The notes under the pieces: generated by a model
Told to the model about the DNA's origin: nothing
The model's database searches: none
Seen by the model: the letters and a program-made list of their open reading frames with translations, nothing else
Shown here: in pieces, positions 4,266 to 42,192 of the stretch
Layout of the letters: every line of letters starts with the position of its first letter
Numbering within the stretch: position 1 is the first letter of the stretch
Program-made: the position numbers and the translations under genes
Origin: Harmothoe impar
Lineage: Eukaryota; Annelida; Polychaeta; Phyllodocida; Polynoidae
NCBI GenBank assembly: GCA_947462335.1
Contig: OX381715.1
Span: 38,044,650-38,108,649, forward strand
Direction: 5' to 3'
Length of the DNA: 64,000 nucleotides

Positions 4266-5837
4266 AAATGCCTAAAAGGGACTCACCGACAGATAATCAT
4301 GTTGCATGTTAGACAAAGATGGTTTTAGGTAATCTCCTATTCTCTGAGCCCTGCTGGTAAAAGTGCCACCCGGACAGATGGTTCTGATGCCAAGGTAGAA
4401 ATGGATGTAGGCTAACACCAGGGGGACAGCATGCCACATACCAATCAAATTATTATATGAAAGTCCTATTTTGTAACTATAGAAACGCATGTATACACCC
4501 ACTGCAGTGGCGTATTCGATTAATACGCCAACTACAGAATGTTGCCCATTTGAGCAACGGTTTTGCTGAAGCTACTTTCCGCATCACCAATAAATGTCTG
4601 CCTCGATATTTGCCAAACTGATATATGATTTTTATATTTGATTACTTGTGTTGCTAGACTATCATGCTAGGTATAAAAACCAAAAAAAAACTAACTTGTG
4701 TGCACAACAGGAGCTCATATGCCCATTCTATGAGATTTGCTGCTGCCCAGAAGATGCCTGTGTTCTCCTGTAGGGAGCCGTGGATTTCCACTCATGTCCC
4801 ACCTCCATCCCTCCTGGGTAGACATCTAAGACTAGCTTTACTCTTGGTATTGGCATCTCTATGCTAAGACTTATACCAAGAAGGGCAGGGCTACAAACAC
4901 AGGCAGTCCCAGATGCCCTTTGTGGGACACAGGACCTTTTGTTTCCTCCAGTGGCGCCTCTAGCGGCTGTTTGATTAATCACTCACAGGGAAAAGGGCAC
5001 TACAGAGGAGCAGCCACAGAGAGTCAGAAAGGGCACTACAGAGGTCCCTGACAGGGCCACAAAGGGCATAACAGCACAGGTCCCCCAGCATATGGCCCCC
5101 CAGGCTCCAGACTCAGCCCAGCTGGTTAGCCTTTTAACCCTTTAAGATGGTTGCCTATCATGAGTCAAAAGTAACTAGATTTCCTTCAAATTGTTCCCAC
5201 AACACCTTAGACATCATTTGGAACCAAATAGTGAAGAGAAAGGTAGAGGGTCTCAAGCTACTTTTTAAAATATAGAATTTTGAAAAATAAGAGTGGTTCT
5301 CTAAGATTAAACCAGGAAATCATTTATTTTGTGAGCAATGGTAGTAGAAGTATTGTCTTTCATATATTCTTCAGACACTTTCTGAATCAATGACATTGAT
5401 GTCCATTAAAACATGATTGTATGGTCATGTGCATAATTCAGTGAGTTAGGGCAAGTGCAAATAAAAGTAATAATAATCAATAAATCAAAAGGTGGTTTTA
5501 GAGGTAGCTCCCAGTATGACCAGCTGTAGCTCTGCCTCAGTACAGAACTCACATTCTGGGGTTGTGGGTTGGCTCCTTGGTCAATCCATGGCTCATAATT
5601 GTACCTATTGTTATAATATGTTAACTATAAACATCAGATGCGCAGAAAACATCGCAATGGATGTCATCACGATGATAGGCAACTACCTTAAGGAGGACAT
5701 GCTGCTAAAGATGACATTTGTCGTCATGATACACCAATGCAGCCTTAAAGGACAAAGAACCGTAATGTTTTCCTTCTTTTGTGCTTTGTCTTTTTGGTTC
5801 TGTCTGAGATTCACCGCCCCCTCTGGTCTGCTGTCCC
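4266..5837. other. Host intergenic DNA, no gene seen
   Basis: No coding frame with a domain or exon signature. There are short repeated phrases such as GGGCACTACAGAG near 5000-5040. Confidence 0.5.
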
Positions 5838-6091
5838 CTTTACCCCTTTAAGGATGGCACAATGCACTAATGCATCATGCTGACGGTCTTCATGATACAT
5901 GAATGCAGCCCTGGCAAGTAACTCGCCAGTGCTGCATTCAAGCATCATGCAGACCCTATGGGGTTGAGACACTCCCAAAGTCTCGGCATGATGCACCAAT
6001 GCAGCACCAGCGAGTTACTCGCTGTGGCTGTATTGATGCATCATGACGCCAAATGTCAACTTTTAGCAACATGCCACCCTGAAAGGGTTAA
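5838..6091. repeat. Dispersed palindromic element, near full-length copy
   Basis: One of the best copies, about 250 bp. The outer ends are inverted repeats of CCCTTTAAGGATGGCA type. Inside are two palindromes, each an arm pair around a GAGTTACTCGC-like centre: one with TGAATGCAGCC, one with CACCAATGCAGCACC. They are separated by a GGGTTGAGACACTCC spacer. It has no coding capacity, so it resembles a MITE moved by another element's transposase; no transposase is visible here. Confidence 0.8.
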
Positions 6092-6360
6092 GCTACCTGA
6101 GAGTTGTGTGGGCAGCAGACACGAGGACCTCGGTTAGATGAGTGATGCCGTCTGTACCAGGCCTGCTACTTGACAGGACCCTCACTACTGGAGGCCTATT
6201 TATATACACCACATGGAGACCAGGCCATGTGCCCTGGTGTCCTTGGGTATTAAACCCGCAGATCTTACTGCACGTCCAGTAACAGCCAGAGTGCAGTCGG
6301 GACAGGTACTCAGCCCTATATTTAGGGGCGCTGGGGGTTTAAGGGCCATGGGTTTGACAG

Positions 6361-6650
6361 GTCCATGTGTCCAAAGGGCCATACATCCTAAGGATCATGC
6401 ATCAAAGGGGGGGAGCATGCATGGAAAGGGCCATGCATCCAAACGGTCATATGTCTAAAGGGCCATGCATCCAAACCGCCATATGTCTAAAGGGCCATGC
6501 ATCCAAACCGCCATGCGTCCTAAGGGGCATGTGTCCTAAGGGCAATGCATCCAAAGGCCATGCATCCAAAGGGCTATGCACTCTAAGGGTCATGAGTCCA
6601 AAGGGCCATGTGCTCAAAGGGCTATGCGTCCAAAGGGCCATGCCGGGAGG
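6361..6650. repeat. Minisatellite, unit about 18-19 bp
   Basis: About 15 degenerate units of the type AAGGGCCATGCATCCA in head-to-tail order. The long open frames on both strands here are products of the repeat, not genes. Confidence 0.85.
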
Positions 6651-7346
6651 AGGGCTTCAATAAACTATATACGCACGATGGGGTGGAGGTATTTCGGGTA
6701 CATAAACCCTTCATATTATTATGAACAAGAGCCTTAGCGGGAATGGGGTCGGGAAGGGCGATTTCTGCACAAACTGTCCCCCGTTAAGCGGCCCCACATG
6801 CCATAGTTCTTATATTAATGGACAAACCCTTCTTTTGGTTCCCCATTCACACCAAAACCCTGCTCACTATGGCCACCACGACCCATGAACCACCCAGGTC
6901 ATAACCATGACAGCATGAAACACCGTAAAACATCAACATCAGCGCAGAGTCAAATCCCAGCTGCATTAATTGTTAATTCGCCGTCCTTCAGAGCCTCCTA
7001 AAGCCCTCTGGATCACCTCTAAACCAAGCCCCATCCCTCGAGCCTCCTCCGACCTCACCTCTCAGCTTCGGGGATAATTATGATGGGGTTGGCTTATGTT
7101 TTGCCAGACTGCAGGGGTCGTAGTTGGGGGGAGGGTAGGGTGAGGTGTTGGGGGGCAGAGGAGGGGTGGTGGTGCAGGGGTGAAGGGGCGTGGGGAGGGA
7201 TGAGGGGGTGAGGGGTGAGGGAATGCGGGATGGAGGGGGGGGGGGTAGGGAGAGGAGAGGTGGGGGCGGAGGGATATCAGTAGCCGTACGTTTGAGATGA
7301 GGATGGAGTGGAACGCGGGGGTGGGATGTTTTGACACAAAGTCTCC
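6651..7346. other. Host intergenic DNA with G-rich tract
   Basis: No gene. A strongly G-rich, GGGTGAGG-like low-complexity tract spans about 7120-7275. Confidence 0.6.
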
Positions 7347-7592
7347 CTAACCCTTTAATGACATCATGATGTCTAAGTCAGTGAAGGCTTCAAGTTCAAT
7401 TCCACTAATAGAGCTTTCACGAGAAATGACCCATTGCTGCATTCCTGCATCATGCCAACCCGTCGGGAGTCTCTCAACCCCGTAGGATGTTTGAATGCAG
7501 CCCTGGCGAGTTACCTGCCAGGGCTGCATTCATGCATCATGACAACCAACTGCATGATGCATTAAAGCACTGCGCTGTCCTTAAAGGGTTAA
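7347..7592. repeat. Dispersed palindromic element, near full-length copy
   Basis: Copy with both ends (CTAACCCTTTAATGAC on the left, TCCTTAAAGGGTTAA on the right). It has the two internal palindromes around ACTCGCC-like centres. Confidence 0.8.
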
Positions 7593-8422
7593 CACAGCAT
7601 GGAGGGGCTGTTAATGAGGCAGACATGGGTAATATCCTCTATTATCGCTCAGTCAGGATAATTCCCGCCATAATGACGTCACAATAGCGCGCCCGTCAAC
7701 ACGAGGCTGATTAGAAAAGTTTGTATGGATGAGCCTCCATAGCGGCGGCCGCTGATAAAAGCACGGATTGATATTAATAATAATCAAAATCAATAGTAAG
7801 CCTGCACCATGGGGGTTTGAGGAGGGAAAGAGAGAGGGGCAGGGGGTAGGGTGAGTTGGGGTGAGCCGTGGGGGTGAGTTACATAGGGTGAGAGAGGAGT
7901 AAGGTAGGTGGCACGGATAGAGGAATGAAAGGGGTTGGGAGAGGAGAGGGAGAGGGGAGGGAGAAGAGAGGGAGAGGAGAGGGGAGGGGAGGGAGAGGGA
8001 AGGGAGATGGAAGGGGGAGGGAAGGGAGGGAGGAGGGGGTGATAGGGGGATGGAGAGAAGAGGAGAGGGAGAGGAGAGGGGAGGGAGAAGGAAGGGAGAT
8101 GGAAGGGGGAAGGGGGAGGGAAGGGAGGAGGGGGGGGGAAGGGGGAGGGAGAGGGAGATAAGGGAGTAAGAGGGGAAGGAGAGGGTGAGAGGCTGGGGAG
8201 TAAGAGGGGGTGAGAGGGAGAGAGGGAGGTATAGGGAAAAGAAAACGTGATAGTCAGGTGGAGTGATTGTAGACGCTGCCAATTTATCAATACCATTGTT
8301 GATGGCCGTGATTCTCCCCGTTACAATAGACAGGCCGTGTTTGGGTGGAGACCTCCTATTATCTTGCTGTGGGAGTATTTTCTGCTCATTAATAAGGAAT
8401 AGCTCCTGTTCTACACCTGCCA
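7593..8422. repeat. Host DNA with long purine-rich (GGGAGA)n tract
   Basis: From about 7900 to 8240 the + strand is almost only G and A in GGGAGAGG-type units. The long frames read from the opposite strand, rich in Pro, Ser and Leu, are low-complexity artefacts. The rest shows no gene. Confidence 0.75.
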
Positions 8423-8660
8423 CTTAAGGATGGCATCTCGCTAAAAGATCAACTTGTCATCATGATACACTGATGCAGCGGGTAACTCGCCGTACTGCAT
8501 TGGTGCATCCTGCTGACACTTCACGGGTGTCTCAACACTGTAGGGTCGACATGATGCATGAATGCAGCCCTGGCGAGTTACTCGCCAGGGCTGCATTCAT
8601 GCATCATGTCGACCAAGAGTACAATGCATAAAGGCCTCATGCCGTCATTAAAGATAACGA
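8423..8660. repeat. Dispersed palindromic element
   Basis: Copy with one perfect internal palindrome of about 60 bp centred near 8580 (TGAATGCAGCCCTGGCGAGT and its reverse complement), the cleanest example in the window. Confidence 0.8.
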
Positions 8661-10780
8661 GAAAACAATTACCCACTATTTCTGACTTCATTTGTGCACT
8701 GGCGCTTGCTCTATTTAATCAGGATAATAGACATTAACGGTCGTTTTTAAATCACATCCACGGAAAGTAAACTGTTAGGAGAACATCATATATTCTCTAG
8801 ACCTACATGCACAGTCAAGCCGCACTACTTTGAATATGTATTACAAATGTACCTCGAATCACTCATCTCTCCTGGCAACTGTCCTTAGGCATAATTATAG
8901 CCTAGACCAGGACTTTTAGAGAGACGCTTCTATTCGAGAGATTTGAGCAGAAGCTTTCGTACCACAATCCACAAGAAGTAGCTCTCCGACCCTTGCACTA
9001 TCCCGGAGTGTCAGTATACATCTTTATTCTAAGCCTTTAGTCAACCATGAGTCAAGATAATAGGCGCCGCGGGCCTTGAATAGCCGCCTCCATTGAATAG
9101 GTGCTGGGGTATTTGGGTATTGAAAAGAATAGGCGCCGGGGCGCCAAAACGCCACGATACGGTAAGGTGGACATCTTTACGTACGTGTATGGTTGACTCT
9201 AGGACAAGCTTTCCTATGAGATAGTTCATAGTTTAGATGTGCGTTTAGTTCTGGACCTCCATCCCACCTGCTCCAAGTCAACTGGTAGTTTTAGTAGCCC
9301 TCCACCTCAGCCCCTCCCCCATAGGTCGGTAGGTCGGTTGGGGGGGGGGGATTTACTACCTGGCCATCTGCCAAGTGCAGATTTACGTCCTGCCCCCACC
9401 CTCACTCCCACCCTGGTCCTTAGCATGCGGCACAGACTATGGAGATTCAAAGCCCACAGAGGGGCCTTCTGATGACTCTCTCTGCTGCAGAATGGCCAGC
9501 TGCTCTCCAACTACTGTCAATCATCGTGTACATGACTGATAAGCCGCATCCCCAACCTTGACATCCCTACCCAAAACACAACAATAATCATTTCCAAGCC
9601 ATATGCCTACACGTGGCCCTTCATAAGCGTGTATTAGCCTCAGTGGTTAAGAGATAGCGATGTCATATGCTAGGTGTAATGAAAGACCCACAGGGGTCTG
9701 AAAATACTGATTGAATAGTGTAATATACTTATAAAAAAGACTCGTATAAGCCTTATTATTTCATGGTAAATACGGACTGTCAAGGTTAAAGCAATGGGAG
9801 AGCCGTTCCCCAGGGCAGCGTGCAATAACCCTAGGTCGTATTGCACGCTGTGGTCGTATTGCACGTTCCCAAGGGCCGTGGGGGGTCGCTATGGGGTCAC
9901 TATGGGGTCGCCATGGGGTCGCTACGCTGCCGAGGGTCACGTGACCTGCGCAAAATTCAAAATGGCGGCCGACGGAAGTAAACAAATGCCGCAGAAGTAA
10001 ACAAATGCCGTGAAAGTAAACAAATATGGACTGCATTGCTATTTTAGATTGATAAACCCTGAAATAAATACAGAGCGTCACTTTAAAGTGACCTCGTCAC
10101 TGGTTATTGCACTCACGGTTCCTGCCCTGTTATCAACTAAAGCTGAGTCAGACTCGCCTACAAGCCGGGGCTCCTAAGTGACCTACCACGGCCCACAGGG
10201 AGACCTATCAGCAGGATTTACTACCTAGGACCCAACAGGGGACGAACTTACACAGTGCCTAGATACCACCCATTTTACCTGTAATCTTTAAAAAAACAAC
10301 TTTGTATCTTTATGATTCCCCCGTCTCTAGATGGTGCCACTGTAAGTCTGCAAGTCTGAATGTCCTTTCCTTTAGTCTTAATCATCCCATCCTTTAGAGG
10401 TAGATGGATTTGGTTATCGTTCTGTTACAGTTTTAAAAAAATGGGAAAAAAAGAGAGAAAGAAAGAAAAGAGGTGTGTGGGAGCAGAGCCCCCGATATAT
10501 ACAGCAGTGTTACCAACTTACAGTGGTACCATCTAGAGGATAGGCCTAGAAACTGATTAAGATTAACAGAAAAGTGGGATTACTGGTAAAATGGGTGGCG
10601 TCTAGTCACTTGGTTAGTTCGTCCCCACATGCACCTGGGGCGGGCTGCTTGGTACAGATTTACGTGCTGACCCTGCACGGCTCCTTAACATGCGGCACAC
10701 ATACACGCCGTGCCAATAAGGAGCCCCTACATCCTCACTACGGCACAGCCACAACAAATTGCTGCAAATCATCTCAGGTG
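8661..10780. other. Host intergenic DNA, no complete gene
   Basis: No recognisable protein. Around 9880-9925 the word ATGGGGTCGCTA recurs about four times, and 9965-10025 has three units of GAAGTAAACAAATGCCG type. A promoter-like patch is listed separately. Confidence 0.5.
9935..10012 (+). promoter_or_regulatory. Possible YY1/ETS-type promoter patch
   Basis: The stretch contains CACGTG within GTCACGTGACC, then AAAATGGCGGCC (YY1 consensus at a start codon) and CGGAAGT (ETS core). Together these are typical of CpG-type housekeeping promoters. An ATG in the YY1 site opens only a very short frame, so if it is a promoter the coding sequence lies beyond a splice not seen here. Confidence 0.35.
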
Positions 10781-18999: not shown

Positions 19000-19421
19000 G
19001 GAGCACTCACAGTCTATATACTAATTTCGCTCCCACGCCATTAGAGATATAGTATCAGGAGTTTCACCACTGTATGCAGGACATTCAGGGGGTCATTTTG
19101 AGATATTACAAGTGGGGATAAGCCTAATGGAACTATTTTTTTATGAAAAAATAAGAAGTTTTAGGCGATTTTTGGCACTTTTTCGAAATATTCTAGACAC
19201 ATATTTGGGATCATTTGAAAGGTATTTTTTTGCTCTATCAGATGCACTATCAACCTAATTGATAGGACTAATGGCGTAAGAGCGAAAACAGAATAAAGAT
19301 CCCAACCCCCTGCAGGCCCAAAATAGACACTGCTTTAGCTCCCATATCATTAAGAATTCAGTCTCAGGAGGTTTACCATTCAAAGCAGGACATTCAGGGG
19401 CTCATTTCGAGGTATGACAAG
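19000..19421. repeat. Host repeat: one intact unit and the left half of the unit hit by the Polinton
   Basis: Unit 1 (about 19000-19310) shares GCAGGACATTCAGGGG, an ACAAG word and TAGACACATATTTGGG with unit 2. Unit 2 begins about 19320, is cut at 19421 by the Polinton and resumes at 42193. The comparison shows that the target held a single ACAAG-type site before insertion. Confidence 0.75.
19416..19421. repeat. Target site duplication, left copy (GACAAG)
   Basis: The six bases before the element are repeated exactly after its right end (42187-42192). Six-base duplications are the rule for Polinton integrases. Confidence 0.95.
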
Positions 19422-19550
19422 AGTAGTATATGGCAGGCTCTACGTAGGGGTGTAATCAAAGGTAATTATATTACAATTACCTGGCTATTACTGGAGGGTG
19501 TTTGGGGGTAATTTAGGCAATTACTTGACTGCTTTACACTTACTTGACAC
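19422..19550 (+). repeat. Left terminal inverted repeat (129 bp)
   Basis: Starts AGTAGTATATGGCAGG and matches the reverse complement of 42058-42186 with one mismatch, at 19484 (G here, A in the other copy's sense). Similarity stops after TTACTTGACAC. Confidence 0.97.
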
Positions 19551-19774
19551 CTACTTTTCTCACTTAAGATAGACAAAGGAGTAGTATATGATAAAACAAT
19601 AGAACAGGGTCAAAAGAGGTAATAGAGAACGGAAGCTATTTTGTATTTTATGACTTAATGGTTGAAGTGAGATTTCATTGTATCACTCTTTTGGATCGTA
19701 GTACTTTGGATTGGGTTAATGCGAGCAAGACGTTGTCTACTAGAATCGCTGAAATCTAGGATTGATTTACTATA

Positions 19775-20359
19775 ATGGAGCGTCTATATCGTCATCATGA
19801 TATGGAAGTTTCTTATATTTATCATGATAAAACACACATGGACGACTTGGATTGCCTGATAACAGAGGACGATTCATTTAGCAAATTCCCAGCTACACAA
19901 AATATAACTATCCCTATGGATTTTAAGTATTTGGAAAAGGCTTGGGATCTTTCTGAAAGAGACAGTTCAGTTAGTGATTCTTGTCTTGTTTTGACTCCTT
20001 TGTTTGAAGCTTTGAAAGCCTTCTTAGACATTATCAAGGAAGAGACTGACTATTTTCTTGTGCAACGTTTGGATACTTTAGAGAGAGCTAATGTGAGATA
20101 CGGATTCATGAATTTAGTATTTTATGGACATGCTGTCGTGAGGAACGCCAAGAAAACAAGGCTGACTCCATTGATAGAAACAAAGGAGTTTATTGCTTTG
20201 TTGAAAGCTGGTTATGCTTATAATTCTGATTTGTTCTCATGTATTCAGATTGAGACTAGATCTCAGTTTAAAGGACTGTTATTGAGTTTAATTTATGACT
20301 CTATGTTATGTCAGCATGGTCAAAGTCATTCTCGACCTTTTTATGGTTGGTCTAAATGA
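19775..20359 (+). CDS. Left-arm family protein 1 (194 aa, unknown)
   Basis: I do not recognise this protein. It starts at an ATG about 225 bp inside the left terminal repeat. The first 60 residues are acidic and His-rich; the remainder is predicted helical, and the chain ends with a PFYGWS motif. Its C-terminal half aligns by eye with the gene at 21958-22658 (shared YN..LF...IETR/TKS.F..LL.S...DS and terminal F.GWS), and more weakly with the gene at 24178-24666, so it is one of three paralogs in this arm. Possible poly(A) signals AATAAA follow at about 20824 and 20855. It is likely an accessory, host-interaction protein by position only. Confidence 0.75.
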   Translation: MERLYRHHDMEVSYIYHDKTHMDDLDCLITEDDSFSKFPATQNITIPMDFKYLEKAWDLSERDSSVSDSCLVLTPLFEALKAFLDIIKEETDYFLVQRLDTLERANVRYGFMNLVFYGHAVVRNAKKTRLTPLIETKEFIALLKAGYAYNSDLFSCIQIETRSQFKGLLLSLIYDSMLCQHGQSHSRPFYGWSK

Positions 20360-21691: not shown

Positions 21692-21764
21692 GCCTGGTTA
21701 GCTCAGAAGGGAGAGCGTCAGACTTTTAATCTGAAGGTCGCGAGTTCAATCCTCGCACCAGGTG
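21692..21764 (+). tRNA. tRNA-Lys (anticodon UUU)
   Basis: A 73-nt cloverleaf fits fully: acceptor GCCTGGT/ACCAGGT (one G-U), D stem GCTC/GAGC, anticodon stem TCAGA/TCTGA with loop CTTTTAA (anticodon TTT), variable AGGTC, and T stem GCGAG/CTCGC with TTCAATC loop. Discriminator is G. The A box (TAGCTCAGAAGG) and B box (AGTTCAATCC) needed for RNA polymerase III are intact, and a TTTT terminator follows at 21771. There is no intron and no encoded CCA. It lies inside the Polinton, between accessory genes, and all stems pair, so it looks functional rather than a decayed SINE. It may read AAA/AAG codons, which are common in the element's A/T-rich genes; that benefit is inference. Confidence 0.93.
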
Positions 21765-21957: not shown

Positions 21958-22658
21958 ATGTCTGAATCAGACACAGATTTTGAATTAGAAATTATTTTGT
22001 GGGATGAAGTAGATAGAGACGATTATCATACATGTCCAGAAGATGACATTTTAGACTACACTTCTACGAAAAGCATTATTATTCCTATACAGCGACAGTG
22101 TGTTGATGATGTGTATAACCCAGCTAACAAAAAAACGTTATTTTACGTCAAAATAACGTTATAAAATTTCATATAACGTTATGCCATAGTAAGGAGCCTT
22201 AGAGAAACGTTATTTAACGTTATATAACGTTATAAAATGTTGTTTAACGTTTTTTGTTTACTGGGAAGGCTTTAAATGGGCATTCAGTAGGAAGTTTATC
22301 AGAAGAGCTGTTAGAAATCGTTGATTCTTTAAAAAGATTTTTAAAAGAAATAGACGGGGAAACAGACCACATTGCGGTATTTCGAAATAATTTGTACGAG
22401 GTTCATGACGCTATTCACATTGTAGTCTATTGCGATCAAATAATACACTCTGATGACGGATTGATTAGAATAGATCAATTAAAACAATATCAACGTTTAC
22501 TAGTTGCAGCAAGGAATTATAATCAGGAACTGTTTCAGATTGAAACTATTGACACTAAAAGCCGATTCAGGTCTTTATTAGTATCAATGCTGAAGGATTC
22601 AGAGATGTTTGTCAATGGACTCATAAGAGCGTGGGCTTTTCACGGGTGGAGTCAGTGA
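21958..22658 (+). pseudogene. Left-arm family protein 2, broken by an insertion
   Basis: A paralog of the gene at 19775. The first part (21958-22124, acidic, starting at an ATG) runs into a palindromic insertion and stops at 22164. The second part resumes after 22260 and continues to a stop at 22658, ending with FHGWSQ like its relatives. Removing the insertion with one TA copy restores a single frame of about 188 codons, which shows the break came from the insertion rather than slow decay. Unless the insertion is spliced out, the full protein is not made; a shorter C-terminal product from an internal start is possible. No role is assigned. Confidence 0.75.
22125..22260. mobile_element. Roughly 130-bp palindromic MITE-like insertion
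   Basis: Ends are inverted copies of ACAAAAAAACGTTA, and the interior is built from repeated ATAACGTTAT words in both orientations. TA dinucleotides flank it (22125-22126 and 22259-22260), consistent with a TA target duplication of the mariner type. It is A/T-rich with no coding sequence. It splits the reading frame of a left-arm gene, so it arrived after the Polinton gene was formed. Confidence 0.75.
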
Positions 22659-24177: not shown

Positions 24178-24666
24178 ATGTGTTTCGATCCAACATATAA
24201 CTTTGTGATTATCTTGCCCAAAGAAGACCTAGCAAAATTAAAAGAACTGTTTTCTCTTCCTTTAGAAGAAAGGATGTATGACAGCGAAGAAACACAGCAA
24301 TTAGTGCACGGAATTGAGAGTTTCATAGACCAGTTCTCTTCAGATCTATGGCACACTACAGAACATATAGCGGCTACTTACACTGATGAAAACTCGAAGT
24401 ATGCCACTGAGAATCTTGCTGCAATTCAGATCATTTTCCACAACTGTGAATTAGTCACAGGGTTAAAGGTGACGGACACTTCGGAATTTAAATTCCTTAA
24501 AAAACAGCTAGACAAGAACCCTGTCATCAGTTACATGATGCACAGAATAAAAATGAAAGGGCTCTTTAAGACTGAGTGGCAAGAGCTAATGGAGTATGGT
24601 GAGTGGCTCTCTGAGAGCGCTACGTACCTAGAGCCCTTTTTTGGCTGGGAGGAATGCCCTTGTTAA
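24178..24666 (+). CDS. Left-arm family protein 3 (162 aa, unknown)
   Basis: The ATG lies only four bases after the stop of the spliced gene, so it may be translated by reinitiation or from its own transcript. The chain is mostly helical and ends with PFFGWEE, matching the F.GW(S/E) ends of the genes at 19775 and 21958. Its similarity to them is otherwise weak and rests mainly on length, helical pattern and the C-terminal motif. It is followed within ten bases by a perfect hairpin that contains AATAAA. No function is assigned. Confidence 0.75.
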   Translation: MCFDPTYNFVIILPKEDLAKLKELFSLPLEERMYDSEETQQLVHGIESFIDQFSSDLWHTTEHIAATYTDENSKYATENLAAIQIIFHNCELVTGLKVTDTSEFKFLKKQLDKNPVISYMMHRIKMKGLFKTEWQELMEYGEWLSESATYLEPFFGWEECPC

Positions 24667-24730: not shown

Positions 24731-25496
24731 CATGACTGAAAGAATGCTACAAAATTAAAAGTATAAGACTTTATTTCTATATTGTTTTGTTGATTAGTTA
24801 ACATGAAGCAATGCAAATATATATGTATGCAGGCAATCATTTGCAAAGGTGTTCTCTTGTCTAGAATACAAACTTAATTTCTGTTAACTTTATACGGTAT
24901 ACAAGGGCGTTATAGTTATAAGTGTTACTTGTCACGTTAGTTATCAGCAGCGGCATTGTAAACGTCAGGGAAAATGCTTACATTAACCTTAATTAGTGTT
25001 CTTGTATATGATATACGGTGTCTCAGTAATATACAGCGTTGTATACGTCAGGGAAAATGCTTACATAGGTTTTAATTAGTGATATTTTATATGATATACG
25101 GTATCTCAGTAATATAGTCTTACATGATAGCACTATATACATTTTTAAGAAAACAGCTAAACATAAAGCACAAACTAATCACAGGCTTAATCAATAGTGA
25201 CACAGTTTGTAATTGTTACTCAATGGTATCAAAGTTTGTAATCGCTATTTAGTGTTTAATTGTACTTTTATACGATATACGGTATCTGATTAATACGGTG
25301 TTATATGATAGCTCTATATAGATATTATTTTCACAATGTCGCTGAGCATGAAGCACAAACAAAATACTTAGTTTATATGATATACAAGTAATTCGCTTAA
25401 TTCTTAGATATATATATTGTATACAAACAATTCAGCTTATAGTTTGAGTATTAAGAATAAATCTGCTTAAATACACGAACGAGTTCTTTTTCCTAT
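24731..25496. repeat. A/T-rich region with degenerate direct repeats
   Basis: An 83-bp unit starts at 24958 and 25041 (shared ACGTCAGGGAAAATGCTTAC and ATGATATACGG). A partial third relative lies near 25270. A TTTATT at 24763 can serve as a minus-strand poly(A) signal for the glycoprotein gene. No open frame. Confidence 0.65.
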
Positions 25497-26393
25497 TCAT
25501 ACTTCAGTTTCAACAATGTTGTCGTACACAATATTGTAAAACTTGTAATATTCAAATTCTGTCGACGTTGATCTGTTGCATGGTTTTTTCTTGACTAAGT
25601 AGACAATCCCAATCACAGCTATCACTCCCATTATAAGACTAACACTTATCCAAACAGGTAACAATTGGGGAGATTGGTTTAGTTCAACAGTATCAGCAGC
25701 AGAAGCAGGAGGAGGAGGAGGAGGAGCAGTAGTTTGATAAACTTTGAAAGTATCAGAATCAGTTTGTGTATCAATAACAGGTGAAGTAGTGATTTGTTTC
25801 AGAGTTGTAGAAACAAAGTTTGTTTCTATACTTCCTTCAGTACCGGTAGAACTAGGTTTTACAGTCCATAGAGTTAATTCAGGATCATAACTGACGCTGG
25901 CCGATTTAGTAGTAGTATCTAGAGTTTGAGTAGACAATGGGCTATTTGTTCCAGGACCTTTAGAGGTCGTGATGTGGGTAGTGGTGACAAATCCGGCGTC
26001 TGTGGAAGTGTGAGTCACCTCCTTTTCCTGTTTAGCTATCGTAAAATCCGAAGGTGTAGAAATGTAAGTAGGATGTACGAGGCAGTTCCATCTGATAGTA
26101 TAGTTTACGTCTTGAGGAATAGAATCGCAGTGAAAACTATCCCATTGATCTCTTATGTCTACGATTTTAAGACTTTGAAATTTCTGAAACACAGCTGTGT
26201 TGAATTTAATCATTTTGCATAGTCTCCAGTCTAAGTGATAATAGTGATGGTTATTCCAAATGTGAAAAGACTCAGGATCGACTTGACGACAAGTGATGAC
26301 TCCCTCTTTGCAGTCACACTTTTCACATATATCGATTTGGCAATTTGTTAATCCAAAAAGAAGCACAAACCCGAGTAAAATAGAACTCTCCAT
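25497..26393 (-). CDS. Type I membrane glycoprotein A (298 aa)
   Basis: The chosen start (ATG at 26393) gives a clean signal peptide (residues 1-18, MESSILLGFVLLFGL core); the frame is open upstream but adds only basic residues. The ectodomain has seven cysteines (23, 26, 28, 35, 59, 89, 104) beginning with a C-x2-C-x-C-x6-C cluster like leucine-rich-repeat caps, then a (V/I)K(I/V)xDIRD segment. A Ser/Thr/Pro-rich mucin-like stalk (about 110-245) follows, with a run of prolines. A transmembrane helix lies at about 252-273. The tail contains tyrosine sorting-like motifs (YNIV, YDNI). It is the paralog of the gene at 26989, transcribed in the opposite direction. A virion surface or cell-surface role is inferred; no fusion peptide is evident. 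Confidence 0.82.
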   Translation of the reverse strand: MESSILLGFVLLFGLTNCQIDICEKCDCKEGVITCRQVDPESFHIWNNHHYYHLDWRLCKMIKFNTAVFQKFQSLKIVDIRDQWDSFHCDSIPQDVNYTIRWNCLVHPTYISTPSDFTIAKQEKEVTHTSTDAGFVTTTHITTSKGPGTNSPLSTQTLDTTTKSASVSYDPELTLWTVKPSSTGTEGSIETNFVSTTLKQITTSPVIDTQTDSDTFKVYQTTAPPPPPPASAADTVELNQSPQLLPVWISVSLIMGVIAVIGIVYLVKKKPCNRSTSTEFEYYKFYNIVYDNIVETEV

Positions 26394-26988
26394 TTTGGGT
26401 TTCCTCTGTTCTCTTCGGCTGTATCCCGTTAACCTAGTTCTATTTAACACAGACGGAATTGATAGTAACTTTACCCGTATGAGAGGCGGGAAATCGCTTA
26501 ACCTAGTTCTTCAAGCATATACTTAGTTAGACAGTTCGGGTTATTACCGCTAAAACTTCTGCTTGGAGAATATATTCAGCGTCTGCGCTGTCTCCATGCT
26601 GATGTCTAACCTTCTTCGTGTAGTACACTGACACTGAACAACGGGTGGGAGAGTGAATATGCGGGTCATTTGTTCTGCGAGGCTGATTCACTCTCCCACC
26701 CGATGTTCAGTGTCAGTGCAGTATAGCGGTAGCGTTAAACAACGGGTGGGAGAGTGAATCAACCTCGCAAGAAGAAATGATGTGTTTATTTGATTTAATA
26801 AGATTATGCATCATCTACGTTTACATTTGCGTATTTATTAAACAAATAATACGGCAATATTTAAACATTAAGTAAACTGTCTTGAAACTTATCTTTTAAA
26901 ACAAAATTTAAAGACCGGTCTCGACGACTGCTTCAGTGTAGTCGCCGCGAAATGTGAATTCAGAACTCAGAGGATAATCGCGTACGAA
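26394..26988. promoter_or_regulatory. Divergent promoter region with two competing hairpins
   Basis: GGGTGGGAGAGTGAAT occurs at 26643-26658 and 26744-26759, and inverted at 26686-26701. The middle copy can pair with either neighbour: left pair with arms extended by ACTGACACTGAAC (26625-26720), right pair extended by TGCGAGG (26676-26769). A TTAACCTAGTTCT word occurs twice (about 26430 and 26499). The region lies between two genes facing apart, so it most likely holds both promoters. Confidence 0.6.
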
Positions 26989-27774
26989 ATGCTTACAGAA
27001 ATGCGAGTGTTTGGATTAGTGAGTCTTTTCATTGCAACAGTTGTATTCTTCGGAAGCTCGACATCGCTACTATGTGATGAGTGTACTTGCCGTCGAGCAA
27101 CAGTCACTTGTCGCCACGAACATATTGTTGGACTGTTTAAAATGGAGAGGGCTAGAGGCTTAGTGCATGGAAGAGTTCACAAACTAGACTTGCGCTTCTG
27201 TTGGATTGGGGCCCTGACTGAAGAACTCATTTTGTCTGTCTTCCCTCACGTCAAAGTGTTAGATATAAGAGATTCAGAACTAATTTGTGATCAACGCTAC
27301 TTGAATTTTAGCGGCAAGTCTTTTACGACTAAATACAGTTGTGATTTAGACACGCTTCTAACTACGACGACTACAACTTCAGTGACATTGAGTGACAAAA
27401 CTAGCACTGTCGCTACAAAGACTACTACTAAGGTTCGAATTCCAATTTTTCTACCCACTACACGCCGAGCTATTGTTGTAAGGACGACAACAACAACAAC
27501 AACAGAGTCAGCCACTACTGACCCTCCTTTCAATCCCGCCCTTCAACAATATACTGCGACCCTCGCTTGGTGGGTCTATGTATTGATCGCTGTTGTCGTG
27601 ATGTTGCTTATTGCTCTCATTGGGGTGCTTATATACATCAGAAATAGAGCTCACCCCCCTATACCGGATATTCCTCTAGACATGTTGTCTAAACATCTGC
27701 ATAAAAGGAGGTCTTCACCACCTCCTAGCAGTCCGTCTTCTTCTCAAACGTTGGTAACTATTCTTTTCTTTTAA
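26989..27774 (+). CDS. Type I membrane glycoprotein B (261 aa)
   Basis: Signal peptide (about residues 5-26), then seven cysteines at 29, 32, 34, 41, 71, 100 and 118, whose spacing and context match glycoprotein A (C-x2-C-x-C-x6-C; LDLRFC; VKVLDIRD...C). The segment at 63-100 looks like one leucine-rich repeat between cysteine caps. A Thr-rich stalk (125-178, coded by ACA/ACT runs) and a strong transmembrane helix (about 194-217) follow. The cytoplasmic tail is short, basic and Pro/Ser-rich. It is a diverged duplicate of the neighbouring gene, since the tails differ completely. A receptor-binding or immune-interaction role is inferred; a captured host leucine-rich-repeat protein is another possible origin. 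Confidence 0.85.
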   Translation: MLTEMRVFGLVSLFIATVVFFGSSTSLLCDECTCRRATVTCRHEHIVGLFKMERARGLVHGRVHKLDLRFCWIGALTEELILSVFPHVKVLDIRDSELICDQRYLNFSGKSFTTKYSCDLDTLLTTTTTTSVTLSDKTSTVATKTTTKVRIPIFLPTTRRAIVVRTTTTTTTESATTDPPFNPALQQYTATLAWWVYVLIAVVVMLLIALIGVLIYIRNRAHPPIPDIPLDMLSKHLHKRRSSPPPSSPSSSQTLVTILFF

Positions 27775-28103: not shown

Positions 28104-28398
28104 TCTGCAGACTACACTGCTAGTCAGCTAGACTACGTCAACTACCCTCTTCTCTCAGCTACAGACTTACATGCAAGACTACACTTCTAGACGTCTAGAC
28201 TACTTCAACTACTCTCCTTTCAACACAAGGATATGCCTTCTCTCAAGTACTACAGACTTACATGCAAGACTACACTTCTAGACGTCTAGACCACGTCAAC
28301 TACTCTCCTTTCAACACAAGGATGTGCCTTCTCTCAGATAGAGACTTACATGCAAGACTACGCTTCTTGACGTCTAAACAACGTCAACTACTTTCTAT
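28104..28398. repeat. Three tandem units of about 90 bp
   Basis: Each unit holds ACTTACATGCAAGACTAC, then a palindrome TAGACGTCTA-type core, then CAACTACTCTC. Units 1 and 2 are closest; unit 3 is diverged (CTTGACGTCTAAAC). Confidence 0.85.
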
Positions 28399-29340
28399 CA
28401 TATAGTTTTTGTCTTGTTTTTTGGTTGTTAGATTGTTGCCCAATCTAGATGGAAGGTTCTTACTAGACTAAGACTGACTGACTGACTGACTGACTGACTG
28501 ACTGACTGACTGACTGACTGACTGACTGACTGACTGACTGACTGACTGAAATATCTGTGATTATTCCGCTTTTGAGTTGTTGTTGTTGTTATTGTTGTGT
28601 CAAATCTGTGATTTTGAATCGTGTTCGATCGGCATTGTCATTGTCATTGTCATTTTTAGTGTGCGTGTGTGAATTGTTAGGTTTGTTAAAGCTAATGAAA
28701 ACATATAATCATTATTTGCTAGTCATATAATCTTATTACTATATATTAGATGCATAAAAGCTTAGTGTGTGTGATTTAAAGTAGTAAATCATTTAACTGC
28801 TATGTATTTCACTGTATATCAAGTCGATTAGTGTGTGTGTTAGTAAGGAATCATTCACTGAGTATTTAGTACCGGTACTCTTAGCACTCACTGCATATCA
28901 AGCTGATAAGTGTATGTTATTTAGTATAAGCAACGAATCAGTATTCTTAGTATAAGCATATAACTATATTTTGTTTACTCAAGTTCATAGAACAATCATG
29001 TTATCAGGTATTACATGAATATCAGGTGCTAATCTATATGCTAAACACGCTATCAGGTATCTTTTTATTGAAGTCAAGTATTACATGAATATCAGGTGCT
29101 AATCTATATGCTATACATTCTATTAGATATTTTGTGAGAAAAGGCTCAGAGACATTGCCTAAGTATGCTAATCTATATCTTAAAACATGCTGCTTAGTAT
29201 TTTACGATAATCAGACGCTAAATCATTTATGTATTAACATGACAACTTTTAGTAAACTCTTCAGCGATAGATGAAACAAAAAAGTTCTTTTAAATAACGA
29301 TAATAATAAATACAATAAATCAGACAAATTGTGATCACAT

Positions 29341-29371: not shown

Positions 29372-29791
29372 TTACAAGAAAGCAACTAGTCTATCATTAT
29401 ATTCAGTGTCAAAAGTAAAATGGTTTACAAAGTATTTCAAGTCATGACCGCGACAGCGAAAATAAGCATACAGAATACAATAATCTCCACACACGTCACT
29501 AGTTTGGCTTTGAAGGCGACGAGTAGAATACATATATGATTTATTCGCATTTATTAAGAAAGGTTTAACTTCGCGGGGTGGGTTCCCTAAAGAATCAAAA
29601 TATTCAATCGTGTCAGATAAAAACAAACACACCCAATGCTTGCCAGGTCCAAAAGAACTGTCTGTGTTTACTACATATAATCCGGGTTTTTGACCTTTCA
29701 TCCATAGTTCGTCATAAGCTATTACCCCTTTGAAATATTTAGAAGTGTATGGATCATTTCTAAGATAGTGGGCGATTTCTAATTCATTCAT
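29372..29791 (-). CDS. Adenain-type cysteine protease (139 aa)
   Basis: Maturation protease of the virion, a C5/Ulp1-fold enzyme that cuts capsid and core precursors. Visible catalytic set: His52 in GKHWVCLF, an acidic residue in EYFDSLG (Glu63 or Asp66), oxyanion Gln94, and nucleophile Cys101 in SDVCGDYC. The order and the seven-residue Gln-to-Cys spacing match adenovirus protease, though the chain is shorter than adenain (about 200 aa), as is usual for Polintons. Its ATG overlaps the stop of the major capsid gene as ATGA (29791-29788). It is the last gene of the leftward block, followed directly by poly(A) signals. Confidence 0.95.
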   Translation of the reverse strand: MNELEIAHYLRNDPYTSKYFKGVIAYDELWMKGQKPGLYVVNTDSSFGPGKHWVCLFLSDTIEYFDSLGNPPREVKPFLINANKSYMYSTRRLQSQTSDVCGDYCILYAYFRCRGHDLKYFVNHFTFDTEYNDRLVAFL

Positions 29792-31122
29792 GTTTCAACA
29801 ACAACGTTTCTGGCTTGATCAATTTTCATCAAAGCTTCAAAACTACCGTACACAATCACTGTAGTCGCATTTTCTAAAGCTTTTGCAAATTTAGCAGTGA
29901 GTCTAGTTTGACCCCTTCTTAGAGGGTTAGAATACAAGGCGTTCTTGCTTTTTTCTAAGTCAAAAACATAAATAGCATATCCGTGTAAGAAATCAAAGTA
30001 ACTGATGTTTGGTAGTTCTTTCTGTTCAGGTGGTACACAGTCGAATAACCTACAATAAGTAGATGCGTAGTTCTTATCAGTAAAATTTGGTTGCATTGGT
30101 CGTCCTCCACAACTTTGACCGTCTATTTGAAAATCTAGATAATTCAAGTCAAAATTTTGGAAATTAAACGGGTTATGTTGGTTGTCAGCGCTGTATGCTG
30201 AAGATAGTACAAATCCGACCACGAGACATTTAGGAATTGAATCTTGAAATAGATTATCCATAGTCCAAGTATAGCTGTCTTTTGGAATGTTATATGCCTT
30301 GATTTCGCTTCTGGTGAAAGGATATAGCGCCATTTCTTTCTTTAACATTTCACCATGAGCAGTTAACACACCTGGATGCATTCTAGCATACGGTACAAGT
30401 AAAGTTGCGTCTTGAATGATCACAGAATATGATTTTGACGTAGTTGCATATGACGGATCTTTTGGATCAGGAGTTTTAAACATTAATGCAAAATTGTCAG
30501 GTGTAGGATAAAATTTTAAATTGATAGGGAGTCCGTTAATTAACAGCCTGTCTTGTTGACAAATATCTACAAACATGTTAGCTTTCAATCTCAGAGTTTT
30601 TCCAGATTTAGTCATTTGGTGTCTGTTAGATAGACCAGTGTTACCGTCTCCTAATATAAAATCATCCATTGATTCTGCTGAATCTGGGTAAAATCCAGCT
30701 ACACTCATAACAGTTTTACATTCTTTTTCTCCTTTTTTCAAAAGAACATCAAATATAGCTTTATATGCATTATTACTTCCAACAGTAGACGTGATATTCT
30801 GCTGCTGAATTGAAAAATCAAACTGTCTAAACAGAGATGAGCTAGGTAAATTAATTAAAGAGACTATATTTTTAGCTGTGACTGGCTTGTTTTTATCGTC
30901 ATTAATGATAACATCTAGCAGCAGTGAAATGTCTTTTAACACAATGTAATCAGAGGAATTGTTATGCACGTCAAATTCTAATGTAGACCCTTTAGAAATT
31001 TGCCCGATTGGACGATAGTCTTTGACATAAATATCTTGAATAGCGGTCTCGACTGGTGGGACATTAAATAGAGCTACTCTGTGGTCGAAACCTTCTTCTG
31101 CGTTATTCAACACAAATGTCAT
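29788..31122 (-). CDS. Major capsid protein, double jelly-roll (444 aa)
   Basis: Corresponds to the Polinton capsid family often annotated in animal genomes as F54H12.2-like. Recognisable blocks are the N-terminal P(V/I)xxxxxDxYxxxYRP region, a QLLINGLPINL-like strand pair near residue 195, the central LLVPYARMHPGVLTAHGEML segment with following YPFTRSEI, and the NPFNFQNFDLNYLDFQIDG block followed by a YxRLF stretch. Length agrees with other Polinton capsids. It overlaps the upstream core gene and the downstream protease gene by ATGA. It would form the hexameric capsomers of the virion. No break is seen. Confidence 0.93.
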   Translation of the reverse strand: MTFVLNNAEEGFDHRVALFNVPPVETAIQDIYVKDYRPIGQISKGSTLEFDVHNNSSDYIVLKDISLLLDVIINDDKNKPVTAKNIVSLINLPSSSLFRQFDFSIQQQNITSTVGSNNAYKAIFDVLLKKGEKECKTVMSVAGFYPDSAESMDDFILGDGNTGLSNRHQMTKSGKTLRLKANMFVDICQQDRLLINGLPINLKFYPTPDNFALMFKTPDPKDPSYATTSKSYSVIIQDATLLVPYARMHPGVLTAHGEMLKKEMALYPFTRSEIKAYNIPKDSYTWTMDNLFQDSIPKCLVVGFVLSSAYSADNQHNPFNFQNFDLNYLDFQIDGQSCGGRPMQPNFTDKNYASTYCRLFDCVPPEQKELPNISYFDFLHGYAIYVFDLEKSKNALYSNPLRRGQTRLTAKFAKALENATTVIVYGSFEALMKIDQARNVVVET

Positions 31123-34025: not shown

Positions 34026-34523
34026 TCAAGTTGGGGTGTTTACATCAGAAGCTGAACACGCAAATGCTGATACATCTTCTAGCACATCAGGCTGGGTGGG
34101 TATTACAGGCATGTATGATCGAGTTTTAGACAAGTCTACTTCATCTGCATTATCTCTGACAAAGCGCATATTATTCACAGTATCTTGTATACGATTCAAT
34201 TTCATACTATAGTCGTGAAGATTTTCCAGCAATAACAACAAGACGTCTCTAGCATTAACAAGTCCATTTGACATTCTGTTTTTTATAAATGAACAGTAAG
34301 GCGAATGTCTTAAATGTTCTAAGTCTACAGTATCAGTCGGTCTCCAAGAATGAAGAACTATACCACAATAATGACACTGTACTGAATCTGCGCCTCCAAG
34401 ATAAAATAATCCAGACTCTACTAATTCTTTTGGATTAGTAAATCTATTCCATGACACAAAGGTTCTTTCTCTTGTTCCACGATCAGCAAATCTAGGATAC
34501 TTCATTTTTTGGCAGATAGACAA
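34026..34523 (-). CDS. BIR-domain (IAP-type) protein (165 aa)
   Basis: One baculovirus IAP repeat fills residues about 10-80. Zinc ligands are Cys50, Cys53, His70 and Cys77 with exact C-x2-C-x16-H-x6-C spacing, plus the GLFYLGGADSVQC approach and the W-x3-D pattern. BIR proteins of viruses commonly bind caspases or IAP partners to block apoptosis; here that is inferred from the fold. There is no RING finger, and the rest (85-165) is a helical then unstructured tail, so it would act by binding rather than by ubiquitin transfer. Its first 32 bases overlap the end of the ATPase gene. Confidence 0.93.
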   Translation of the reverse strand: MSICQKMKYPRFADRGTRERTFVSWNRFTNPKELVESGLFYLGGADSVQCHYCGIVLHSWRPTDTVDLEHLRHSPYCSFIKNRMSNGLVNARDVLLLLLENLHDYSMKLNRIQDTVNNMRFVRDNADEVDLSKTRSYMPVIPTQPDVLEDVSAFACSASDVNTPT

Positions 34524-35206: not shown

Positions 35207-38200
35207 TTACAAAATGTCTTGCCAATATTTCTCTCTTAATTCTTCCCACAACGTTCCTAGTGTATTTGAACCTCTATAATCAGAAGTCACAGCAGCGAGT
35301 CTAGACCCCATACCAATCCCCCAATACACATCTGACGCACAGTACAATAACTTTAAATGTGCTGTATTTCTCAATGTTTTTCTGACGGCTTCACAGACTC
35401 TCATTTTTTCAGTAAGAATTTCTATCATAACTTGTCTCCTGTGCTGTAACCACACAGAGTTTAAATTCATTTTCTGTTCATGCACTTCTTCATTGAAAGG
35501 TATACTGTTCTGAGTCTTTAGCTGGAAATCATAAGCTTCAGCTGCTGAATTGAATTCTTGATTGTATAACTTTAATTTACAAGGATACTCATTAGCTAAA
35601 GAGTGTGAAGTTGTAGCTGAAAACGCTTCATATGGAAGTATTTTCCAAGGCGATAAAGTCATAGCTAATGGTGACGTTGTAACACCGTCATCAGATACTA
35701 TCCTTTTACAATAGTAATAGGACAATCCTGATCTTTCTTGAGCATAGGTAAATATAGTGTTGTCTTTTACACGAAATCCTTTGTTCAATCCGCTAGCGTT
35801 TTGTTGGTTATTTAACACATTTTCATAGTCCTCCATAGGCTGTGACAAAGCGTTTTGGTTTATCCCTTTGCAGACAATCTTAAAGTAGTCATCGTCTTTG
35901 AGAATGTAAGTCTTGCTGCACAATGCGATCATTTCAGTACCGCTAGCCTCTAACTGAAAAGAAATAGTAATAATAGATATCTAAGATTCAGCTCTACATA
36001 TAAACTTGCAAATTGTTTATAACGCAGACTAAATAATGTTAGCTTTAATGCAATATCACTAACGGGTATCAAAGATTCAGCTGTTACAACAAAACTATGC
36101 AATATTGTTTATCACACAAAACTAAAACAATGATAATTTTGACACAATAACAAACAAGAAAACTCACTCACTTTAAACAACCCGGGAGTCCTCTTGTCGT
36201 AATTCATATGTTCAGCACAACATTGACGAGGTAACCAATTAAACAAATCGGCTTCATGTTTAGAAGAATGACAACTTCCATAAACTCTCTCATTATATTC
36301 AGCCATCATTTCAGGCTTGATGACTGATTCTAAAGTATCTCCACTTATTGCAAAATAAGCAGAATCTAGAAAATAAATAAAATAAAATAAAATATTAGAA
36401 AAGAAAATCATCTAGCAACTATTTCTAGATAAGTCTTGTTAACTTAATAACTGCAAAACTTACCTGTGTCCATTTCCAGATATTCAAAATCCTCTCTTTT
36501 CACAAACTTGTCCAGAAAATCATAGTACCATTGCAGCATTCTTAGCTTAGCGTATTGTAAAATGAAATATCCTAGATATATAGGCAAATTCATATTGATC
36601 ACTTTCTTCACTGATTCGACCTCAAATAATTCATCGTCTAATTCAGTCATCTTCCTGTACTCAGGTTTATTTGCAGCGAGGCATGCTTTTCTTTTACCAG
36701 TGCAGTATCTTACGTTTGTATGCTTCTCTTTGTCCATGATCAGGCTACCATAGCCAGAATTACCGATTAACTTCATTGTATCAGCTATAATAGATTTAGA
36801 TTTGTCCTTGTCTCCTTCACGTCGGGCTTCAGACACTTCGTCTTGAAAATCTTTGAAGCAGCGCTTTGGCGTAAACTCTACTACTTGATAGATTTTAGTC
36901 ACTTTCATCCCATGATCTAGATACCATTTCAGTAATGGAGTAGCCAACAATATCTTTTGTGCAGACATTCCTCCGACTAACAGTCTTCTAGGGTCCTGAA
37001 ACATAGAACAAATTGACACATTAATACTGTATAGTTAGTTAGTTAGTTTTAGCTATAGCAAGATTTCATTGATAATGCAAACACTTACTTGTGACAAGTT
37101 CTTTTTCTTGACATGATCTTGCATATGTGAACCAATCTCTTCAAAAGGGATCTCAGTAGTACAAAATATCGGAGACATTTCAGAGAAATATTGAGAAGGA
37201 GTCAAGTGAGATAAAGACCGGTCTTCTTCTCCCCATTCATTCGGTACCTAGATCAAATAAACCCATAGTTTGATAATTAAGTTTTATAAGCAAAAGAGAC
37301 AACTACCTGTAACATTGATAAACTAACGTCATTCCCTCAGCTCTTAAACTAAATAAAAAAGATGATTGTATTTCAATACTAGTATTCACACATACTTACA
37401 GTTATGTCGACTTCTACAACTCCAAACAAATCTCCTTTCTTGACATAGTGTAGAATTTCAGTTTCTGTCATCTTTCCAGGGTGTTTTTTAGAAAACTCAG
37501 GTAACACATTCATTTCTTGCAGACCAGGTTCAGTAGATTTAAGACGACGAAACTCGCATTCCCAAACTGTCTTAATAGAATATCCCATTGATACTAAATA
37601 GTCTTCTCTTAGCTGAGTGTTCTTTTTTCTTTTCAGTCTCTCTTTCTCTTCTAGCTTATTTTTTTGACATTCACATCCATGTATGTAGCAACCATAAAAC
37701 TGAAAAACAAAATAAAAAAAGGGTCTTATAAATCTACTACTGCTACTAGTATGCAGTAGCGAGTTCAAAAAATAAAATACTTTTTGAGCAGTATCATAAT
37801 TGCTTGATTGATGGATAATTCCTTAAATAGTTTATAGATATGTATATACTCACTACCGGGTACCTGATATTGATAATCATTCTTTACTCACTTCATAGAT
37901 AGTTTTTGTTTGAGCACAATATCCGTCAGCCAAGAAAGGTCCTACTCTCTTCTCATGACCAGAGTTGAGCTTGTGTATGATGTCCACCCCCTCTACCGCT
38001 GTTCTCCAATCTAACCATTCATACATACTGACGTAATGGACTTGTCTTGTTGGTTTGAAATCGTCATCACGATGTCTTCTGACATAGACATTTGTGGGTA
38101 GGGGCATTCCCAATGAATAGAGGTATAAAGCATTTGAGTCAAACCCCACTACTCTCTTACACAATTTATTGCCTCTGATACGAGTTTCATTAGCTTTGTG

Positions 38201-41791: not shown

Positions 41792-42057
41792 GTTGTCCCT
41801 GTGCTATATTTTAAGAAAGTAAACACTACACACACATATATACAAAGTTTCCTTCCACCTGTTGAGTATAGCTGAAAAAAGAAGTTCATTGTTTCTAGCA
41901 TGATTGCAGGTTACCCCTACGTCCTTATTCTTATTGTGTGAGTCGTAAAATAGTAAACTTATGCACCATTGTCTACACATGTAACAAAGCATCGTAAACC
42001 TATTTCCTATTAGAATAACTCTATTCATAAACATGAGCATATGATTACCCAAAGTAC
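41792..42057. promoter_or_regulatory. Region between polymerase start and right terminus
   Basis: No gene. By position it must hold the promoter or a 5' untranslated exon of the polymerase; an acceptor-like TATAGCACAG lies just before the ATG on the minus strand. No clear TATA box could be singled out. Confidence 0.4.
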
Positions 42058-42186
42058 GTGTCAAGTAAGTGTAAAGCAGTCAAGTAATTGCCTAAATTAC
42101 CCCCAAACACCCTCCAGTAATAGTCAGGTAATTGTAATATAATTACCTTTGATTACACCCCTACGTAGAGCCTGCCATATACTACT
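42058..42186 (-). repeat. Right terminal inverted repeat (129 bp)
   Basis: Reverse complement of 19422-19550 with one mismatch (at 42124). It ends ACTACT directly before the duplicated GACAAG. Confidence 0.97.
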
Positions 42187-42192
42187 GACAAG
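42187..42192. repeat. Target site duplication, right copy (GACAAG)
   Basis: Exact repeat of 19416-19421. Confidence 0.95.

Follow-up and report, generated by a model that had tools for sequence, protein, structure and literature searches.

A head-to-head pair of predicted membrane proteins with leucine-rich-repeat-type heads in a Polinton group of the polychaete Harmothoe impar

A stretch of 64,000 nucleotides from Harmothoe impar (assembly GCA_947462335.1, contig OX381715.1, forward-strand positions 38,044,650 to 38,108,649; hereafter the window, whose numbering is used throughout) contains a complete Polinton at 19422-42186. Between the plus-strand small open reading frames (ORFs) of this element and its protease gene lie two divergently oriented genes, P1 and P2, each encoding a predicted type I membrane protein with a cysteine-rich head. 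We read the two as anciently diverged copies of a virus-encoded leucine-rich repeat (LRR) surface protein acting on the surface of the infected cell, a proposal that we think has an even chance of being correct. Genome-wide sequence comparison indicates that the pair belongs to the standard gene set of one Polinton group, where it is arranged head-to-head around a shared upstream region. The pair probably matters to the life of these elements with host cells or to their spread between them.

P1 (25497..26393, minus strand) and P2 (26989..27774, plus strand) are ATG-initiated ORFs of 298 and 261 aa, respectively. Both predicted proteins begin with a hydrophobic N-terminus read as a signal peptide and continue with a seven-cysteine head of approximately 95 aa, a stalk rich in serine and threonine (S/T), one transmembrane helix and a tail, the two tails being unrelated. 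In P1 these parts are the head (aa 20-108, 26070..26336), stalk (aa 109-242, 25668..26069), helix (aa 243-267, 25593..25667) and tail (25500..25592), all on the minus strand; in P2 they are the head (aa 26-122, 27064..27354), stalk (aa 123-192, 27355..27564), helix (aa 193-217, 27565..27639) and tail (27640..27771), all on the plus strand. The stalks were recognized by composition, and in P1 also by the ratio of non-synonymous to synonymous substitution (dN/dS), from which the domain boundaries given here are taken; as delimited in the architecture scan, the stalk comprises 144 aa with 34% S+T in P1 and 80 aa with 39% S+T in P2. Signal peptide and transmembrane calls were made from Kyte-Doolittle hydropathy and reading by eye, and the N-terminus and transmembrane helix are the only hydrophobic segments of the window's P1 and P2. 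The original prediction of two such ORFs with this architecture and dissimilar tails therefore holds, with the P1 start corrected to the ATG at 26393. A GTG at 26450 was considered as P1 start and rejected, as the in-frame ATG suffices to give 298 aa. The two starts are separated by 595 bp (26394..26988), within which overlapping inverted repeats occur at 26591-26658/26686-26753 (overall 26591-26769). Inspection of the upstream regions by eye revealed no obvious shared promoter motif.

Relatives retrieved from the same genome (lineages and loci designated L or C) largely retain this design. All seven head cysteines are present in 20/21 P1 proteins. P2 relatives are more variable, with loss of the fifth cysteine, the first pair (L013 and L014 types) or the last pair (L026 and L031) in some. 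A transmembrane segment follows the head in 20/21 P1 and 19/24 P2 proteins, the remainder including truncated frames.

The two heads are, on sequence comparison, homologous and form a paralogous pair, as had been predicted. They share the pattern C-x2-C-x-C-x6-C, followed by LD.R..C, DIRD and two further cysteines. BLASTP aligned P1 with P2 at E 1e-5 (24% over 86 aa), and the local score of the heads (66, versus a shuffle mean of 26) was reached by 0/5000 shuffles, or by 3/5000 when cysteines were held fixed. Profile-profile comparison with hhalign after addition of relatives gave 98.4% and E 7.8e-15, which speaks against placing the two proteins in unrelated families. BLASTP of the stalks and tails returned nothing convincing, and the transmembrane segments paired weakly (E 0.25).

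Profiles built from the heads are of LRR type. The P1 profile was made from 16 of 21 heads (alignment A6), leaving out the near-duplicates L012, L021 and L040 and the odd L017 and L018. For P2, 13 of 25 proteins (24 loci plus the window) were aligned (A7) after exclusion of near-duplicates and of truncated or cysteine-lacking heads, so that statements about P2 alignment columns hold for those 13; the P2 head was further examined in alignment A8. Searched against PDB, the P1 profile gave 58 matches at E up to 10 (best E 1.6e-6), all of them LRR proteins except RecR (E 0.32). The joint profile of 29 sequences gave 79 matches (best E 5.1e-9), of which the best 60 were all LRR proteins. The matched chains include TLR, VLR, CD180, TrkC and U2A', which we take to be LRR proteins. 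Matches began at the N-cap in several chains, including LRRC4B, VLRA (4-67 to 5-72, E 0.00037), Slit2 (3-71 to 5-67, E 0.00073) and LINGO1 (6-67 to 6-67, E 0.016). As a control, 22 of the 29 heads were reversed, and these produced two matches, both to VPS15 at E 1.5. Spacing of the strand motif was 24 aa in 15/15 P1 heads with both motifs matched (16 scanned) and 25-28 aa in 12/13 P2 heads. Furthermore, P2 of L018 and L029 carries Asn at the position of the fifth cysteine, as in the LxLxxN consensus. Heads of this type thus combine two features of extracellular LRR proteins, namely a profile match to their ectodomains (P1 and joint profiles) and a repeat of about 24 residues of the form LxLxxN/C. 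Each head can accordingly be read, from these alignments, as an N-cap, one LRR (24 aa in P1, 25 aa in P2) and a C-cap, in keeping with the original prediction of a single LRR-like segment between cysteine caps. With two cysteine pairs in the N-cap, one pair in the C-cap and one cysteine at the Asn position, such a reading would also explain the odd seventh cysteine.

We surveyed the window's own genome (1.51 Gb, 736 contigs) for further copies; because only the best candidates were scored, all counts are lower bounds. The first searches returned at least 91 P2 rows and at least 104 P1 rows, with no overlap between them, corresponding to 85 P2 and 104 P1 places; 80 of the P1 places were head-to-head with P2 within 5 kb. 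Three more queries, from which 15 P1 and 28 P2 rows were added by eye as new, raised the union to at least 119 P1 and at least 112 P2 places. Within 6 kb these form 108 divergent pairs and no convergent or same-strand pair, one P2 place that overlapped a P1 match having been removed before counting. Some of the added P1 matches may rest partly on S/T-rich stalks; those used sit at loci of the major capsid protein (MCP), in the expected place and on the expected strand. The pair is therefore common among related Polintons of this genome.

A search with MCP (95 of 2420 first-look candidates scored) gave 115 rows at 95 loci. P1 was found on the MCP strand at 95/95 loci, within 15 kb at 92 and at 16-27 kb at the other three, and P2 on the opposite strand at 91/95. 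Gene order was MCP-P2-P1 in 91/91 loci. At L035 the P1-P2 gap spans 23.9 kb and contains a Gypsy-like reverse transcriptase/RNase H/integrase ORF (3039-9284, 2081 aa). Another query with MCP, for which 100 of 2468 candidates were scored, added three loci with the pair, and 24 further MCP loci that had neither P1 nor P2 within 35 kb. By eye, none of a later set of 113 genome-search rows, kept outside the counts, lay near these 24 loci. The group of Polintons that carries the pair is one delimited by search score rather than by an MCP tree. The protease adjoins the pair on its MCP side in 19/20 fetched lineages beyond the window, a figure that follows from the construction of the set.

Substitution patterns indicate constraint on the heads and on the P1 tail of these proteins, and much less on the stalks. 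Estimates of dN/dS (NG86, the Nei-Gojobori method) excluded pairs that were saturated in dS or nearly unchanged, and for short segments they are rough. Whole-gene values were 0.29-0.38 for P1, 0.20-0.36 for P2, 0.055-0.16 for MCP and 0.08-0.19 for the protease. By domain, heads showed 0.06-0.26 in six measurable comparisons and stalks 0.39-1.02, with 0.03-0.24 for the P1 tail and 0.20-0.73 for the P2 tail. The P1 tail of the window contains three YxxPhi matches and terminates in ETEV, a class I PDZ ligand pattern, both being pattern matches only. Of the P1 tails, 9/20 close with the class I PDZ pattern ([ST]-x-[VILF]); they come from six lineages whose termini are all similar (ETEV, ETDV, DTEL, ESEL), with a chance of 0.9-3.4% for each in shuffled P1 tails. 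Among P2 tails the pattern is present in 2/20, one of them a truncated frame. Matches to YxxPhi, a pattern for which no chance level is given, were seen in 14/20 P1 and 4/20 P2 C-termini.

Comparison of L013 with L014 over 8 kb uncovered an exchange confined to the P2 side of the pair. The two loci are near-identical over about 3 kb that include P1, diverge at approximately 3000-4650 of L013, and are near-identical again directly past this block, with repeats and indels farther on. P2 of L013 lies at 3168-4244, inside the divergent block. Between these loci P1 is 100% identical (dS 0.005) and P2 56% (dS 2.0). L013 and L037 compare similarly, with 100% identity in the head part of P1, 99% in the protease and 56% in the head part of P2. 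What we term a-type P2 occurs at eight places (94-100%, with one broken copy represented by an 87% piece) and b-type at six (50-56%); C326, a broken P2 copy, matches at 60% over 222 aa and at 94% over the head. The simplest reading of these alignments is that the P2 block was replaced by recombination. P2 would then be exchangeable as a unit between elements, for which we have one clear case.

Collectively, these data suggest how the pair could act. P1 and P2 most likely reach the infected cell's surface by way of secretion, where a mucin-like stalk would raise one LRR between cysteine caps above the membrane. The heads could then bind surface proteins of the host or of neighboring cells in trans. 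The P1 tail, which has tyrosine-based sorting patterns and, in some related lineages, also a PDZ-ligand end, may place the protein at cell contacts or control its endocytosis, and such sorting may aid cell-to-cell spread or blunt recognition. A more specific history is possible, and we hold it tentatively: a host LRR receptor would have been taken up by Polintons and duplicated into the divergent pair, giving a surface recognition system in which P2 is the exchangeable specificity gene, serving self/non-self discrimination or host escape and passage between cells. Capture from a host receptor, also part of the original prediction, did not gain support from our searches, which yielded neither a cellular ancestor nor a homologue in the protein database.

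Alternatively, P1 and P2 may be envelope or attachment proteins of the virion, with particles gaining a membrane and binding receptors for entry, a scheme already suggested for nematode Mavericks that carry a fusogen. We consider this doubtful. It would accord with the regular presence of the pair at MCP loci and with the strong conservation of the P1 tail, which recalls tails that contact capsids. Nematode Mavericks, moreover, encode a putative fusogen, as stated in PMC10680173 with reference to work of Widen. Ectodomains of the window's P1 and P2, however, are free of any further hydrophobic stretch (among relatives, one protein, P2 of L010, shows such a stretch above threshold, in its head), and the heads measure about 95 aa. 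Among unspliced ATG ORFs of at least 60 aa in the element, three others have one weak hydrophobic segment apiece, and no ORF besides P1 and P2 combines an N-terminal hydrophobic segment with a separate transmembrane segment, and therefore no fusogen candidate is found among them. This gene content would favor a role at the cell surface over one in a virion envelope. The capsid genes of the element are also of a kind known from non-enveloped viruses, which counts further against an envelope.

Superinfection exclusion or self-recognition is unlikely, in our estimation, to be the primary role. Here the heads would occupy a receptor or mark the cell, and exchange of P2 would shift an element from one exclusion group to another. 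The genome houses numerous related lineages, P2 of the a-type (eight copies) exists there alongside the b-type (six copies), and P2 was replaced while P1 and neighboring sequence stayed about 99% identical, all of which would suit such a system. It must nonetheless be set against these points that a single clear replacement was seen, and that immune escape predicts the same pattern.

Several results weigh against a paired LRR surface protein as we have proposed it. The P2 profile alone was weak against PDB, giving 20 matches (best E 0.023) that mixed LRR and non-LRR chains. Whole-chain E-values in PDB sum several repeats, and the best single-stretch i-Evalues shown were 1.7-8 for P1 and 3 for the joint profile. 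No head exceeded any Pfam cut-off when the 29 were scanned as single sequences; sub-threshold matches included LRR_4 in one head (best E 0.012) and LRRNT in 1/29 (E 0.89), and single-sequence searches of PDB and Pfam with heads gave nothing usable. Two AlphaFold head models, built from two-row alignments, reached a pLDDT (predicted local distance difference test) of only 37-38. In the tails, YxxPhi is missing from 6/20 and the PDZ pattern from 11/20 P1 proteins. Unpaired places number 11/119 for P1 and 4/112 for P2, with ORFs at L029 revealing a P2 beside one nominally unpaired P1. Searching the protein database recovered no relative either for P2 (956 candidates) or for the P1 head (11 candidates), although 57 relatives of MCP are present there. 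Among the viral contigs scanned, neither P2 nor MCP had a relative, and alignments A1 and A6 lacked a sufficiently conserved stretch. Finally, P1-P2 distances correlate at 0.839, exactly as do P2-protease distances, and all correlations among P1, P2 and protease fall at 0.82-0.84, giving no sign of special co-evolution between P1 and P2.

The low model confidence and the Pfam results would also fit a head that is a separate small cysteine-rich fold, for instance one resembling VWC, with a likeness to LRR caps in sequence only. VWC itself was matched below threshold in 2/29 heads (best E 0.14). We judge this improbable; heads in their natural orientation match predominantly LRR chains and reversed ones do not, and the 24-aa spacing together with the cysteine-to-Asn exchange fits LxLxxN. 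Least credible of all is that P1 and P2 are passengers with no function for the element. Stop-bearing copies (3/104 P1 rows, 5/91 P2 rows) would accord with it; against it, dN/dS of the heads and P1 tail is below 0.3 wherever measurable, and no MCP locus of the first survey lacks P1.

Known proteins offer partial parallels to a virus-encoded LRR surface pair. Extracellular LRR receptors with cysteine caps (LRRNT-LRR-LRRCT, as in VLR, LINGO1, LRRC4B, Slit2 and TLR) resemble P1 and P2 in profile match, cysteine caps and, for P1, the 24-aa repeat; P1 and P2 differ in having one repeat and a long S/T stalk, in being encoded by Polintons and in falling below Pfam cut-offs. Platelet GPIb-beta and GPIX are short type I proteins with one LRR between cysteine caps that work in a complex. 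They are not named among the PDB matches listed (best 60 of 79 for the joint profile), and the likeness is not one of sequence closeness. Accessory type I membrane glycoproteins are also known from a non-enveloped virus group, as exemplified by E3/CR1 of adenoviruses. With Hum_adeno_E3A, P2 stayed below threshold (19.6 bits where the cut-off is 22.9; E 0.0011), the aligned part being the stalk, transmembrane segment and tail rather than the head, and P1 had no adenovirus E3 match in Pfam. Unlike viral fusogens, the window's P1 and P2 show no fusion segment at the sequence level, their hydrophobic segments being the N-terminus and transmembrane helix, and no fusogen family match in Pfam.

Among Polinton relatives, the nematode Maverick protein is, like P1 and P2, an element-encoded membrane protein proposed for transfer; it is a putative fusogen and so stands apart from small LRR-type heads (PMC10680173). 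A candidate envelope glycoprotein is mentioned for Adinto14876, a Polinton relative (PMC11071296). For vertebrate Mavericks, PMC8097293 reports (AGT)2 ends as well as accessory regions; its main text uses none of the words transmembrane, glycoprotein, envelope and membrane. Five membrane-protein terms are likewise absent from PMC11071308. Among the open-licence papers listed, no title or opening of an abstract described an LRR glycoprotein pair in Polintons.

The element carrying P1 and P2 is a Polinton/Maverick by its termini and by its integrase and packaging ATPase genes. Terminal inverted repeats at 19422..19557 and 42051..42186 are identical at 134/136 positions, with outer ends AGTAGT...ACTACT, that is (AGT)2//(ACT)2, and are flanked by the 6-bp target site duplication GACAAG (19416..19421 and 42187..42192). 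A retrovirus-like integrase (rve, E 9.9e-15) and a packaging ATPase (Pox_A32, E 2e-6) lie above Pfam cut-offs. Candidate ORFs for a protein-primed DNA polymerase B, an adenovirus-type protease and MCP fit in size and gene order, with no Pfam match above cut-off, and were labeled from their position, their size and the gene order given in PMC8097293. The protease (29372..29791, minus strand) has sub-threshold matches to Peptidase_C48 and Peptidase_C5 (E 0.063 and 0.069), and MCP, the survey query, follows at 29788..31122 on the same strand; both are syntenic neighbors of the pair. On the other side, a plus-strand ORF at 24178..24666 adjoins P1 in part of the lineages and has relatives at syntenic loci. 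Its relatedness to the ORF at 22254 is at most borderline (score reached by 1/500 shuffles). The plus-strand small ORFs at 19775-20359 and 22254-22658 are clear paralogues (local score 137 versus a maximum of 49 in 500 shuffles). Other contents include a tRNA-Lys(TTT) gene at 21692-21764 (well-scoring in ARAGORN, 68.2 bits in Rfam), an ORF with a BIR (inhibitor of apoptosis) domain at 34026-34523 (E 1.6e-16), one with a NADAR domain at 35207-35932 (E 1.6e-11), which is unexpected for a Polinton, and short tandem repeats at 24953-25116 (83 nt) and 28159-28424 (87-91 nt). Outside the element, flanking host DNA is duplicated (47551-51548/59900-63536, about 12 kb spacing, pieces 82-90% identical).

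Polinton particles of animals have not been observed, according to PMC8097293, and the question of whether these elements live as infectious viruses is open for that reason. A conserved and constrained receptor-like pair would offer handles on an extracellular or cell-surface phase of their life, in the form of a ligand, a location and a sorting partner. Moreover, exchange of P2 alone between near-identical elements points to P2 as one protein that may be under selection to diversify.

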